Assembly: GCA_937949545.1 (NCBI GenBank) | Contig: CALEDR010000003.1 | Coordinates: 1 to 64,000 of the forward strand | Direction of reading: 5' to 3' | Source of the DNA: an uncultured Phycisphaerae bacterium | GTDB taxonomy: Bacteria; Planctomycetota; Phycisphaerae; Sedimentisphaerales; Anaerohalosphaeraceae | DNA: 64,000 nt | The notes under the pieces: model-generated | The model's database searches: none | Told to the model about the DNA's origin: nothing | The model's input: the letters and a program-made list of their open reading frames with translations, nothing else | In this document: positions 53,925 to 59,365 of the stretch, piece by piece | How positions within the stretch are numbered: position 1 is the first letter of the stretch | How the letters are laid out: the number at the start of each line of letters is the position of its first letter | Translations under genes and position numbers: made by a program

Positions 53925-54230
53925 TCAATTCTTTTTGGCCGGCGCCGGAACGGACAGTTTCTCCCGCATCAGACGGCCCATTTTGAATTTGACGCTTCGC
54001 TTGGACGGAACCTGGACTCGTTCGAGGGTTTTGGGGTTTTGGGCGATTCTCGAGGAGCGTGTTCGTGTTTCGAACACCCCGAAATCCCGAAATTCGAGCC
54101 GATTGTCCTTTGCCAATTCATCGATGACTTCATCGAGGAATGTTTGGATTATTTTTTTGACGATGACTCGTTTGGCCTGTGTGGATTCTGAAATCCGATC
54201 AATCAGTTCTTTCTTGGTAATTGTTGCCAT
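53925..54230 (-). CDS. HU/IHF family DNA-binding protein
   Basis: This 101-residue protein has the HU start (MATITKKELIDRISEST), the helical dimer part and the beta-arm with RDFGVFETRTRSSRIAQNPKT. It bends DNA and compacts the nucleoid. ATG 54230 gives the conserved N-terminus. HU and IHF are not separable from sequence alone here. Confidence 0.93.
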   Translation of the reverse strand: MATITKKELIDRISESTQAKRVIVKKIIQTFLDEVIDELAKDNRLEFRDFGVFETRTRSSRIAQNPKTLERVQVPSKRSVKFKMGRLMREKLSVPAPAKKN

Positions 54231-54408
54231 CGGCCACCCTCTTGTATATTCTGGAATCAAGACACACTTTTTTCGTCCGATGCCGTTGGGAAAACTCCTC
54301 GACCTCGGAAACCGCAAATCACTATACACAAACGACTTCGAAACGGCAAGTTTTTTTTCGGATTTTTCACGGGTTCGAGAGGATGGGCTGTAGCGGACAG
54401 AAGAGGTC

Positions 54409-54518: not shown

Positions 54519-56111
54519 ATGACGTCAGGAAAAAAGAGCGACAATTCATCTTGTGAGTCTTCCGGTTTTACCGCAGAGGGCATTTACCATTTTCTGGAAT
54601 GGCTGGTTACGGCGCTGGCGTCCACGCTGGTTTTCATTGTCTTTATTATGCAGGTGTACCGCATTCCGACCGGCAGTATGGCCGATACCCTCAAGGGGGC
54701 ACATTTTCGGCTTCGCTGTGAGCAGTGCGGGTATCGGTATGAGTATGATTTTTCTCCACGTCAGTACGGGCTGGGGGAAAATGTAATTCCAAAGCGGGAT
54801 TTGCCGATTTTGAAGGAATGCCGCTGTCCGAGCTGCGGGTATGCGTATCGGGTCTGGATGCGGGACAAGGACCCGCGGTATTATCGTCGGGTGTATAAGG
54901 GGGATCAGATTTTTGTCCTGAAGTGCGTTTATCAGTTCTGGGAGCCGAGCCGGTGGGATGTAGTGGTGTTTAAGAATCCGCTGGAGCCGCATATTAATTA
55001 TATCAAGCGGCTGATCGGCAGGCCGGGGGAAAAGGTGGAAATCATCGACGGAGATATTTATATCAACGACCGGATTGTGCGCAAGCCGCCGTCGGTTCAG
55101 GACGAATTATGGATGCCGATTTATGAGAATGATTATCAGCCGGCTCGTCCGGAAGAAGAGCGGTTCAACCGCCGTTCGTGGAGACAGCCGTTTGAAAATT
55201 TAGGTTCGAGCCGGTGGGATTTGGGCGGTTTCGGACGGCCGTATTTTCTCTTGGCGGAGGACGGAACGCAGGTTCATCGAATTCAGTATAATCCGCAGAT
55301 TGGAAATGATTTTCGGGCAGTCTATGCCTATGACCCGCCGGACTTTCAGGCGAATATGCCGATTTGCAGCGATTTGATGCTTCGCAGTGTGCCCCATCTT
55401 GAACCCGGCGGCGGCGTGGGGTATGAGCTGGGCAAATACGGCCGACGCTATCAGGGCTGGCTTCACGGGGACGGGCGGCTGGAGATTTTCCAGGTGGACT
55501 CCGGGGAACAGAAGAGACTTTTGGCCAGCGGGACGGCGGATTTGAAGGGAGCTGTTCAGCGGCAGGAATTCCGCTTTTCGAATGTGGATCATCAGCTGAT
55601 TCTGGAGTACGGCCGGAACCGTCTGGAGTATGATTTGGGACGCGGAGCGGAGGATGCCGGGACCTGGTCTCATATCCAGCCGGAGGCGGCCATCCTCGGG
55701 TACGGCAAAGTACAGTTGGCTCATATCGGGCTGTTTCGGGACATTTACTATATGAATACGGATGTGTCCAATCCGAGAAATCCGATTCTGCAGGGCGGGG
55801 CGGGCAATCCGATTGTGTTGGGAGAGGATGAGTTTTTTGTCTGCGGGGACAACAGCCCGTACAGTCTGGATTCCCGCTGGTGGAATAAACCGGGACGGGG
55901 AAATCACGGGCGGACGTTTGCTCAAGGGGTTGTTCCGAGGGACTATTTTGTGGGGAAAGCGTTTTTCGTTCACTGGCCGGGCGGAGATTCGGTCCTTCCG
56001 GGCTTTATCCGTTTTGTTCCGTATGTAGAGGGAATGAAAATCATCTATGGGGGCAGCCGGAGTTGGGATAAGGCGGAGTCTCTGACGGCAGAAGCGGAGA
56101 AGAAACCGTGA
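54519..56111 (+). CDS. lepB: Signal peptidase I with zinc ribbon and large insertion (first copy)
   Basis: This 530-residue protein keeps the S26 catalytic dyad: S53 in IPTGSMADT after one membrane segment (~28-46), and K163 in YIKRLIG. Box E is GDNSPYSLDSR near the C-terminus. Between Ser and Lys are zinc-like cysteine pairs (CEQC at 67-70, CRCPSC at 101-106). Between Lys and box E is a ~230-residue insertion with jelly-roll/LamG-like patterning. Usual SPase I is 200-325 residues. It releases secreted proteins at the membrane. It overlaps the next gene by four bases. Confidence 0.9.
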   Translation: MTSGKKSDNSSCESSGFTAEGIYHFLEWLVTALASTLVFIVFIMQVYRIPTGSMADTLKGAHFRLRCEQCGYRYEYDFSPRQYGLGENVIPKRDLPILKECRCPSCGYAYRVWMRDKDPRYYRRVYKGDQIFVLKCVYQFWEPSRWDVVVFKNPLEPHINYIKRLIGRPGEKVEIIDGDIYINDRIVRKPPSVQDELWMPIYENDYQPARPEEERFNRRSWRQPFENLGSSRWDLGGFGRPYFLLAEDGTQVHRIQYNPQIGNDFRAVYAYDPPDFQANMPICSDLMLRSVPHLEPGGGVGYELGKYGRRYQGWLHGDGRLEIFQVDSGEQKRLLASGTADLKGAVQRQEFRFSNVDHQLILEYGRNRLEYDLGRGAEDAGTWSHIQPEAAILGYGKVQLAHIGLFRDIYYMNTDVSNPRNPILQGGAGNPIVLGEDEFFVCGDNSPYSLDSRWWNKPGRGNHGRTFAQGVVPRDYFVGKAFFVHWPGGDSVLPGFIRFVPYVEGMKIIYGGSRSWDKAESLTAEAEKKP

Positions 56112-57610
56112 GATTGGCTAGTCCTTCGGATGGTTTGGCACCGGATTATCCGCGCCTGCGGCGCAGCCGGACGGTGGAGTCGGTTGTCAATGCCCTGGAT
56201 GGGCTGCTGGTGGCGTTTATTTTGGCGCTGCTGTTTCGGGCGTTTGTGCTAGAGGCGTTTCAGATACCGACGGGGAGTATGGCGGAGACGCTCAAAGGAG
56301 CCCACTGGTCTCTTCGCTGCCTTCGATGCGGCATTCCATATGACTTTGGGGCGGATGCGAGCTGGTCCGGACAGCCGATCTGTCCGAACTGCGGGTATGA
56401 ACAGCCGCGGGCGGCCATGGGGGTGCTGGCAAACGGCGACCGGATTTTTGTGAATAAGTGCATTTACCAGTTTTCGGAGCCGAAACGGTGGGATGTGGTT
56501 GTGTTCAAGAATCCGCCGAATCCGCAGGAAAATTATATCAAGCGTCTGATTGGGCTGCCGGGAGAGTCCGTGGAGATTGTTGACGGCGATGTGTATATCA
56601 ACGGACAGATTATTCGCAAACCGCGGAAGATTCAGGAAGAGCTCTGGACGTGTCTGTACCATAATGATTATCAGGCGGGGTTTGCCGGCGGCCGTTTTTC
56701 GTCGCCTTCGGAGGAGTCTTCTTCATCCTGGCCTTTGGAGCCGCGGTTTGAGCCGGAAGGACAGAGTGCCTGGGAACTGAATCCGGAAGGGGACGCCGTT
56801 TTCCTTTTGCGGGGAGACGGGGCCGATGAGCATGCCGTTCGTTTTGTCCCCAAGCGGCCGGATGCCTTTCGGGTTTCGTATGCCTATAACGGGCCGGAGG
56901 GCGGCCCGAATCGTCCGATTTGTTCGGATTTAATGATTCGATTCTGGGTGCAGCCGACGGGGGAACAGGGGCAGGTTGGGGCTCTGCTGAGCAAGAACGG
57001 GGTCGGGTACATCGGACGATTGGATTTTGCCGGCCAGCTGGTTTTTGAAAAACAGACGGAGGATGGGCAGCGCAGCGAGCTGAGAAGGCTGGTTTTCTCG
57101 CCGGAATGGTCCCGGAAGGGGCTGTGGTTTGAGTTTGCCAATGTGGACCGCCGCCTGGTGATTCGCTGCAGAGATTATCGGTTTTCCTATGATTTGAAGG
57201 AGGAGGATTTGGGAGAACGCACCGGCCGCCGGCAGAACCCGGAGGTGAAGATTTTGGGGCAGGGAGGGATGCGGCTTTTTCATATCGGGGTGTATCGGGA
57301 TATTTATTATCTTTCGACGGATTCGCTTCGGGCGCGGCGGGGGCGTCCGTTTCAGCTGGGGCCGGATGAATTTTTTGTTTGCGGAGACAATACGCCAAAC
57401 AGTTATGACAGCCGGCAGTGGGCCGCGGAGGGGCTGGGCAACAACGGAAAGCGGTATCGGGAGGGAGTGGTCCCGCGTGATTTTATGATGGGCAAGGCCT
57501 TTTTTATCTATTGGTCGGATGCGTTTCGGCCCCGGGAGTATATGCTGCCGGTCATCCCGAATCTGGAGCGTCTGCGGGTGATTTACGGGGGCTCGGAGGA
57601 GATTTATTAA
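56108..57610 (+). CDS. lepB: Signal peptidase I with zinc ribbon and large insertion (second copy)
   Basis: This 500-residue paralogue begins at GTG 56108 (GTGA overlap). S57 (PTGSMAET) and K145 (YIKRLIG) give the dyad, with zinc-like pairs at 71-74 and 92-95 and box E GDNTPNSYDSR. The same inserted region lies before box E. The two copies are tandem duplicates; differing zinc and insertion lengths suggest different substrates or sites. Confidence 0.9.
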   Translation: MRLASPSDGLAPDYPRLRRSRTVESVVNALDGLLVAFILALLFRAFVLEAFQIPTGSMAETLKGAHWSLRCLRCGIPYDFGADASWSGQPICPNCGYEQPRAAMGVLANGDRIFVNKCIYQFSEPKRWDVVVFKNPPNPQENYIKRLIGLPGESVEIVDGDVYINGQIIRKPRKIQEELWTCLYHNDYQAGFAGGRFSSPSEESSSSWPLEPRFEPEGQSAWELNPEGDAVFLLRGDGADEHAVRFVPKRPDAFRVSYAYNGPEGGPNRPICSDLMIRFWVQPTGEQGQVGALLSKNGVGYIGRLDFAGQLVFEKQTEDGQRSELRRLVFSPEWSRKGLWFEFANVDRRLVIRCRDYRFSYDLKEEDLGERTGRRQNPEVKILGQGGMRLFHIGVYRDIYYLSTDSLRARRGRPFQLGPDEFFVCGDNTPNSYDSRQWAAEGLGNNGKRYREGVVPRDFMMGKAFFIYWSDAFRPREYMLPVIPNLERLRVIYGGSEEIY

Positions 57611-57736: not shown

Positions 57737-59059
57737 TTACGCTGTGACCATCTGAGTGGCCAGGAGTTCTTCGACGCGTTGGGTCGGGAAGTCCAGTCCG
57801 CCGATGATGGTATAGACCCGAAGAGCCTCGCGTCCGTCCTCATAGATGCCGCGGTGGATGGTGGCTTTTCCGGTCAGGTCGGCCAGGACGTCAAAGGCGA
57901 AGTTGATGTTGTCCTGCAGGTTGGGTGTGTTGGCCATCATCCGCCTGCCGCCGACGACGATGCAGCCGGCGACCTTGGCGGTGCTCAGATCGAAGCCGTT
58001 GCTCAAGAGCGTCTTTTCGAGGTTCTGCTTGACGGCGCTGCTGAGGGCGAACCGGTCTTTGTATTTTTCGACGCGTGTGAGGCCCATAATCGCGCAGCCG
58101 CCGGCCTTCAGGATGCTCTGGTAATCGACCGGGTCCAGAGTGGTGTAGGGGCTGCTGAGCGAGCTGAGCCGGTTGAAGATGTCGAACATGCCGGCCACGG
58201 TGTTGTTGACGCTGGGCCAGAACTCGCGAACCGTCTTGCCCGGGTACATCCGGCTGATTTTCTCATTGTCAATGATAATCAGCGGAGAGATTTGCCCTTT
58301 GGAGGCCATCTTTCCCAGTTCGGCGGCCACCTGATAGGCATTTTCAGCCACCTGCGGCGAGTTGGCTTCGCCGTTGGTCGGCAGGGTCATAATGACGCCG
58401 ACGTGCTTGTGGGGCTCGGTTTTCCCGATGGAATAGACATAATCCTTGGCGATGCTGACCAGTTCGGCCGCACTGCCGCCGCCGGTTCCGCCGCCGGCCC
58501 CGAAGCAGACCATCACATGGTCCACTTCCGTTCCGAAGGTCTTGCGGGTCAGGTGCAGGATGTCCTGCCGCCACTGGGCGGCGGCCTGCTGTCCGCGGCC
58601 CATGTCTTTGCCGGCCCCTTTTTCGCCGATGTCCATCAGAAACTTCTGAGAGGGCGGCAGCCCCAGCAAGTCGAGGTCGTGGTAGGTGGTGTTGACGGCA
58701 ACGGCCTTTTTGTAGCCGAGGTCATAAAAGGCCTTCACGATCCGTCCGCCGCACTGGCCGCTTCCAATCCAGGCAAAGCGGGTGGAGCCGACGAAATTGT
58801 CCTTCACGCCTGTTTCACAGACGGTTTTGACCTCATACCGTTCCAGGTCCAGAACGGGGATCATCTCTTTTTTGGCTTTGGCGGGCTTGGGAGCGGATGT
58901 TTTGACCTGTGCGGAAACGTTTTTCTTCGCGACCGGCTTTGGTCTGGCGGTCTTGACCTTTTTAATAGGGGTTGTTTTTGAGGTTTTCCGCACGGAGGTT
59001 TTGGCGACTTTTTTTACGGATTTGCGGACGCCCTTTTTGGAGTTTTTTTTTGCTGTCAT
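57737..59059 (-). CDS. FtsZ/tubulin-superfamily GTPase with lysine-rich N-terminal tail
   Basis: This 440-residue protein is a divergent member of the FtsZ/tubulin family. T1 is GSGQCGG at 99-105, the T4 G-box is GAGGGTGGG at 187-195 (family GGGTGTG), and the T7 region is TTLDPVDY at 307-313. T7 keeps both acidic residues (D309, D312) needed for hydrolysis, although the FtsZ Asn is Thr. Residues 1-64 contain 24 Lys/Arg and no Asp/Glu, with KKVAKTSVRKTSKTT-like H1/SR patterning. The usual FtsZ C-terminal tail is not recognisable. It probably forms filaments; the tail may bind DNA or membrane. Confidence 0.85.
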   Translation of the reverse strand: MTAKKNSKKGVRKSVKKVAKTSVRKTSKTTPIKKVKTARPKPVAKKNVSAQVKTSAPKPAKAKKEMIPVLDLERYEVKTVCETGVKDNFVGSTRFAWIGSGQCGGRIVKAFYDLGYKKAVAVNTTYHDLDLLGLPPSQKFLMDIGEKGAGKDMGRGQQAAAQWRQDILHLTRKTFGTEVDHVMVCFGAGGGTGGGSAAELVSIAKDYVYSIGKTEPHKHVGVIMTLPTNGEANSPQVAENAYQVAAELGKMASKGQISPLIIIDNEKISRMYPGKTVREFWPSVNNTVAGMFDIFNRLSSLSSPYTTLDPVDYQSILKAGGCAIMGLTRVEKYKDRFALSSAVKQNLEKTLLSNGFDLSTAKVAGCIVVGGRRMMANTPNLQDNINFAFDVLADLTGKATIHRGIYEDGREALRVYTIIGGLDFPTQRVEELLATQMVTA

Positions 59060-59365
59060 TCTTTTTCTCCTATATTATTTTTTCATCCCTAAGAATACTT
59101 CTGCCGGTAACCCTGTTTTCCTGGCTGTAGAGTCTGTGCTGCCTTTGCTGTTGAGTTCGGTTTTTTGAGGACTGGGATTAAGGAGACTGTTTGAAAAAAA
59201 GAAAAATGAAAGCAATTTGCCCCGAGAAGAGCTTGAAATGGGAATCTGCGGGGTCTCCGGAAGAAGTCCGATAAACAGGATGAAATGTTATCGGGCCTTC
59301 GAGAAGGAAAAGCGGTTCTTGTGCGTTGCCGCAGGAGCGGGTATAAAAAAACGGAGTCAGATGAG
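59060..59365. other. Intergenic region with no convincing gene
   Basis: This 306-base stretch between the FtsZ-like gene (upstream region on the minus strand) and the CYTH gene has AT-rich tracts and no clear promoter, terminator or small gene that I can support. Confidence 0.4.

Follow-up and report, generated by a model that had tools for sequence, protein, structure and literature searches.

Members of the Phycisphaerales divide by binary fission although planctomycetes lack FtsZ (PMC5147048), and any tubulin in such FtsZ-less hosts informs on division and segregation. In the 64,000 nucleotides of DNA from an uncultured Phycisphaerae bacterium that were analyzed here (the window), the minus strand holds a tubulin-like GTPase frame with an ATG start (57737-59059), raising the question of what a tubulin with a lysine-rich N-terminal tail might do in such a cell. 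The frame encodes 440 amino acids (CDS 57740..59059, stop codon 57737-57739) and was assigned from the open reading frame, a Pfam match and orthologues. A preliminary description of this interval had the particulars of the gene right but omitted its strand; the plus-strand reading is an unrelated antisense frame. A Shine-Dalgarno-like AGGAG read from the sequence (59067..59071, minus strand) lies 7 bases before the ATG, and relatives are arranged alike. Since the tail is also kept in relatives, we regard the start as real. A mis-called start, which the preliminary description had named as the finding that would remove the tail, was ruled out by the ribosome-binding site, the tails of at least 22 orthologues and a tail dN/dS below 1.

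The motifs of the GTPase core, all encoded on the minus strand, comprise the T1 loop WIGSGQCGGR (residues 97-106, 58742..58771, from the motif alignment), the T4 signature GGGTGGG (residues 189-195, 58475..58495, from sequence and motif alignment) and the T7 loop D309-P-V-D312 (58124..58135, from alignments). The G-box and both acidic T7 residues are thus present as had been described, and D309 and D312 are invariant in all aligned planctomycete and phage relatives, pseudo-GTPases included. The window protein scored 39 bits against Pfam Tubulin (PF00091; cut-off 33), while it stayed below the cut-offs of Tubulin_2 (PF13809; 20.6 versus 27 bits), the model relevant to FtsZl-type proteins, and of TubZ-like_C (20.7 versus 26 bits), which a phage homologue (L123) passes with 27.9 bits. 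Its score against the FtsZ equivalog TIGR00065 of NCBIfam was 49.9 bits, far under the cut-off of 295.2, in agreement with the suggested divergence from canonical FtsZ. The AlphaFold2 model of residues 65-440, built with an alignment of 29 sequences, reached a pLDDT of 90 and a pTM of 0.89, whereas the full-length protein folded without an alignment gave an unusable model (pLDDT 41). The core model matched TubZ, CetZ and FtsZ at Z 29-39, with Bacillus cereus TubZ first (Z 38.6 over 332 residues, rmsd 2.3 Å), followed by B. thuringiensis TubZ, CetZ (Z 35.9) and FtsZ (Z about 31); Foldseek agreed, with B. thuringiensis TubZ as best match (E-value 4e-22). On the model and the TubZ match, the tubulin/TubZ-fold core is assigned to residues 97-440 (57740..58771, minus strand), with a C-terminal helix at its end. 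Profile score, G-box and predicted fold together identify the window protein as a tubulin-superfamily GTPase other than FtsZ, with GTPase activity predicted.

The tail (residues 1-64, 58868..59059, minus strand) contains 21 lysines and 3 arginines, neither aspartate nor glutamate, and 2 residues of the FILMWY set. Its net charge of +24 was unmatched by any other 64-residue stretch in 60 non-overlapping open reading frames of the window (the runner-up, in a frame of 98 codons, reached +21), and in 20,000 shuffles of the tubulin-like protein no stretch of this length exceeded +18. The tails of the orthologues (at least 22) range from 48 to 271 residues and vary in sequence while keeping their composition. 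When pooled, 22 of them amount to 2,938 residues with 1,126 Lys/Arg, 37 Asp/Glu and almost no large hydrophobic residues; the longest are made up of repeated units like KKRTTTKAKAK or KRTTAKRHATPKAK. The dN/dS of the tail alone was 0.25-0.38, compared with 0.03-0.04 for the nearly frozen core, which together with its retention in relatives indicates that the tail is translated and under selection. Count, shuffles and orthologues bear out the initial view of a histone H1-type tail, and the drift of sequence under a constant composition would correspond to the way histone H1-like tails evolve. Lysine repeats in TopA are reported to increase processivity on DNA (PMC7398561). Between tail and core lies a linear motif found in the alignments, IPVLDLERYE (residues 67-76, 58832..58861, minus strand), which is conserved also in the phage family, in variants such as IPTLDIEDYD.

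A location of the gene on a plasmid or phage was rejected, as its neighbors are housekeeping genes of chromosomal character. No neighboring gene recurs across the whole set of tubulin loci compared. In other families of the order, a gapdh-pgk-rpe-tubulin-accD-like neighborhood is conserved (L041, L198, L202, L203, L206 and L207; gene names by inspection); it is fixed across two families and contrasts with the window genus. The preliminary description placed the gene directly after a tandem pair of signal peptidases. These are indeed adjacent but convergent with the tubulin gene and in a different operon, and the meaning attached to them finds no support, their proximity being kept only in the closest relatives, near genus level; a functional link was rejected on both grounds. 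The pair itself (54519-57610, plus strand) encodes two adjoining signal peptidases of the S26 family (530 and 500 amino acids, much above the usual size) that contain CxxC pairs resembling a zinc ribbon and whose catalytic domain has a long insert; both are kept in the nearest relatives. The window also holds an HU-type DNA-binding protein with a short basic end (53925-54329, minus strand), 3.4 kb from the tubulin gene.

Scans of viral contigs returned at least 232 relatives among 600 candidate stretches, the best 80 of which showed 48-53% identity. Among the matches listed, the closest relatives outside the order come from uncultured T4-like marine phages (IMG/VR), with 47-53% identity over the whole core. 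Their contigs are up to 190 kb long; a T4-type portal family was found in 10 and a terminase family in 9 of 20 tested. In one phage clade the tubulin gene precedes the terminase gene by about 1.3 kb in 48 loci, which account for almost every locus of the set where this terminase was detected; examples of phage tubulin genes are L123:5992-7125, L141:5992-7128 and L094:5992-7125. Among cultured phages, nothing closer than gp138 of Bacillus phage G was found, and this sole relative is about 22% identical. PHROGs contained no family for the L123 protein, and a related phage protein (L072) matched an unnamed PHROG weakly; the BFVD entry A0A6J5RW92, named FtsZ Cell division GTPase, is 30% identical. 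In a tree of 57 rows, a single branch with support of 100/100 separates phages from planctomycetes, and in a quick rooted tree the branch lengths of FtsZ, TubZ and phage G exceed 6; with one separating branch and outgroup branches this long, the trees give no direction of transfer. The window protein adjoins the marine T4-like phage clade, far from FtsZ, TubZ and phage G, and by tree position and full-length similarity it can be placed in the tubulin family of these phages. In 20 representatives, the phage N-termini are short and acidic (9-24 Asp/Glu, 0-6 Lys/Arg).

Some family members lack the tail. In a sister family within the order (f7), three catalytic proteins (G358, G360 and G361) begin with MAQIPTLDLEQYEP or nearly so, leaving a 3-residue N-terminus before the core and no tail. 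The next gene downstream in G358 and G360 encodes a tubulin-like protein whose fused extension comprises AAA_lid_14 (E about 1e-17) and HTH_8, which exceeds its cut-off of 22 bits in G358 (27.3 bits) and falls short of it in G360. The extension corresponds to the terminal part of an NtrC-type regulator from which the ATPase core is missing, with a phmmer match to ZraR at 1.5e-16. In G361 the catalytic gene lies at a contig end, and another contig starts with a partner that has this extension. Each catalytic protein with a 3-residue N-terminus is thereby tied to such a partner; G382 has a 48-residue tail together with an HTH-type partner. That a partner bearing a Fis-type helix-turn-helix stands in for the tail points to DNA as the target of the family, and these fused partners, judged from their domains, provide the best evidence that it works on DNA; the complementarity of missing tail and helix-turn-helix is drawn from three or four related genomes. 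Fusions of a tubulin-like protein to an NtrC-type lid without the AAA+ ATPase core lie at L199:6726-8519 (minus strand), L205:8878-10578, L197:6708-8285 and L061:1-864, and most of these carry the Fis-type helix-turn-helix as well.

The reading we favor, in which we place about even confidence, is a TubZ-like, GTP-driven filament tethered to DNA by its own histone H1-like tail. The core would bind GTP and stack head to tail, with the T7 aspartates completing the GTPase site of the neighboring subunit. The disordered tail, up to 271 residues long in orthologues, would bind DNA electrostatically and without sequence specificity, such that tails along a filament could make many weak DNA contacts. 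In family f7, the DNA link would have shifted from the tail to the partner with the Fis-type helix-turn-helix. The outcome would be accessory DNA positioning, compaction or segregation, and our best reading is that the filament system may serve such accessory positioning rather than general division, as its patchy distribution suggests. TubZ itself moves DNA and contacts its partners via a flexible tail (PMC5322520).

The preliminary description left open whether the tail links the filament to DNA or to membrane. The tailless versions beside a Fis-type partner speak for DNA; the membrane half finds no support, the tail offering hardly any amphipathic or hydrophobic residues for insertion (2 of FILMWY in 64). 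A broader alternative is that the tail binds another polyanion, namely acidic lipid heads, RNA, ribosomes or, causing bundling, the filament's own acidic surfaces. Composition alone cannot separate these targets, and RNA, acidic lipids and acidic proteins would be equally possible partners of a lysine-rich tail. Moreover, the phage relatives carry acidic N-termini at the same place, which makes charge-based contacts within the polymer conceivable and means that DNA binding via the N-terminus need not be ancestral. However, the helix-turn-helix partner found in place of the tail points to DNA, and we consider another polyanion unlikely as the target.

The genome contains a second, divergent gene of 347 amino acids (G000:C21:34610-35623), elsewhere from the window gene, which matches over both halves and is too divergent for detection by PF00091. 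Genes of this type were found in 11 genomes, always together with the tailed gene. In the paralogues of G000, G001, G003, G004 and G005, and independently in that of G007, the T3, T4, T5 and T6 nucleotide loops are lost or broken, whereas D309 and D312 of T7 persist in all loop-less paralogues (4 of 4 in the column count). Of the columns that are invariant elsewhere, the nucleotide loops retained 48 of 136, compared with 97 of 136 across H7, T7 and the C-terminal domain (p 4e-9 by Fisher's test, a value that overstates independence because the rows are related). The dN/dS of 0.15-0.23 indicates that the paralogue is under selection. From these alignments, the GTP-less paralogue is likely either to cap the filament or to take turns in it with the catalytic subunit, like alpha-tubulin; either arrangement would fit into the DNA-tethered filament proposed above. 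A more elaborate form of that proposal, which we put forward tentatively, is a two-subunit DNA-tethered tubulin in which a tailed catalytic subunit is joined by a GTP-less subunit whose T7 fires the GTP of its neighbor. It is possible, though we lean against it, that this represents a division of labor like that of alpha/beta-tubulin, of independent origin, in a family common to T4-like phages. Equally tentative is its further element that the basic tail and the Fis-type partner would be two alternative links to DNA.

Could the tailed tubulin instead be the FtsZ substitute of these bacteria and form their division ring? It is the sole PF00091 gene in a genome that is 99.7% complete, the same search found no canonical FtsZ elsewhere, its GTPase motifs are complete, and binary fission proceeds in the Phycisphaerales although planctomycetes lack FtsZ (see above). 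On the other hand, 44 of 59 relatives, many of which exceed 95% completeness, gave no PF00091 match, and the matches listed among the 59 were all the tailed gene or its paralogue; a general division ring of the order is thus unlikely from the gene content, at least as one needed by every cell. No more than 28 of 161 genomes in the order carry the family, and a division ring should not be optional inside one family, which leaves this alternative with little credence. A draw of 294 genomes across the phylum contained the family in 6, 3 of the window genus and 3 distant; a pattern scan of genome contigs for relatives was swamped by FtsZ and gave 3 matches. Two distant planctomycete relatives (L032:715-2601 in G240 and L033:739-2499 in G212) combine an N-terminal FHA domain and a coiled-coil-looking middle with a C-terminal half that resembles tubulin and has a degraded G-box.

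We hold it similarly improbable that a phage tubulin was domesticated for conflict between phage and host, with the host protein or its GTP-less paralogue poisoning or hijacking the filaments of an infecting phage: the sister-group relationship at about 50% identity, the patchy distribution and a paralogue that, lacking the GTP pocket yet retaining T7, would be well suited to poison filaments are in its favor, but PADLOC gave no match, the neighbors of the window gene are housekeeping genes, the gapdh-pgk-rpe-tubulin-accD-like locus fixed in two families looks vertically inherited, and the split from phages gives no direction of transfer.

The DNA-tethered filament we propose would be of a known kind, the cytomotive bacterial tubulins; neither its tailed architecture nor its link to phages nor the GTP-less partner was described in the literature searched. 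That search, with most subscription journals outside it, returned no report of this Sedimentisphaerales tubulin or of such a tail. The phage sister family is common among uncultured marine T4-like phages, with nothing close to it in cultured ones, and with the GTP-less paralogue one can ask directly whether heterotypic tubulin polymers arose more than once.

Compared with known systems, the window protein shares the superfamily motifs T1, T4 and T7 with FtsZ but differs in its basic N-terminal tail, its patchy distribution and its profile score (49.9 versus 295.2 bits). FtsZ carries a conserved C-terminal peptide that binds FtsA, ZipA or SepF; by inspection this peptide and its linker are missing from the window protein, which stops at its last helix (EELLATQMVTA). 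FtsZl1/Tubulin_2 proteins, likewise divergent superfamily members, are known from planctomycetes as well (Makarova and Koonin, 2010; PMC2875224). FtsZl1 lacks a recognizable T6-H7, whereas the window protein has T6-H7, is below the PF13809 cut-off and lies in no operon with vWA or OmpA. CetZ resembles the core model in fold (Z 35.9). PhuZ, the spindle tubulin of jumbo phages, shares the tubulin fold and the phage link, but viral models named PhuZ or tubulin-like are only 12-15% identical to the window protein. PhuZ polymerization needs an acidic C-terminal knuckle (PMC3678025), which is missing here, as no acidic tail follows the last helix. The marine T4-like phage tubulins are much closer, with 47-53% core identity and a shared IPxLxLE-type motif before the core, but they have a short acidic N-terminus instead of the basic tail and reside in phages rather than on a chromosome.

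The nearest solved fold is that of TubZ, which mediates type III plasmid partition on Bacillus and Clostridium plasmids and in phage c-st, in an operon with TubR and with tubC iterons. Likenesses include the T4 and T7 motifs, a C-terminal helix, which the structure alignment matches by reaching model residue 376, and a plausible role in moving DNA. Unlike TubZ, the window protein is chromosomal and only about 20% identical to it, and no TubR-like gene or tubC-like centromere repeat was seen in the surroundings of the gene. The tail of TubZ is C-terminal, whereas that of the window protein is N-terminal and basic. The known bacterial DNA-moving tubulins, TubZ and PhuZ, work through adaptors or shells; in the system proposed here, by contrast, DNA would be held directly by the protein that forms the filament.
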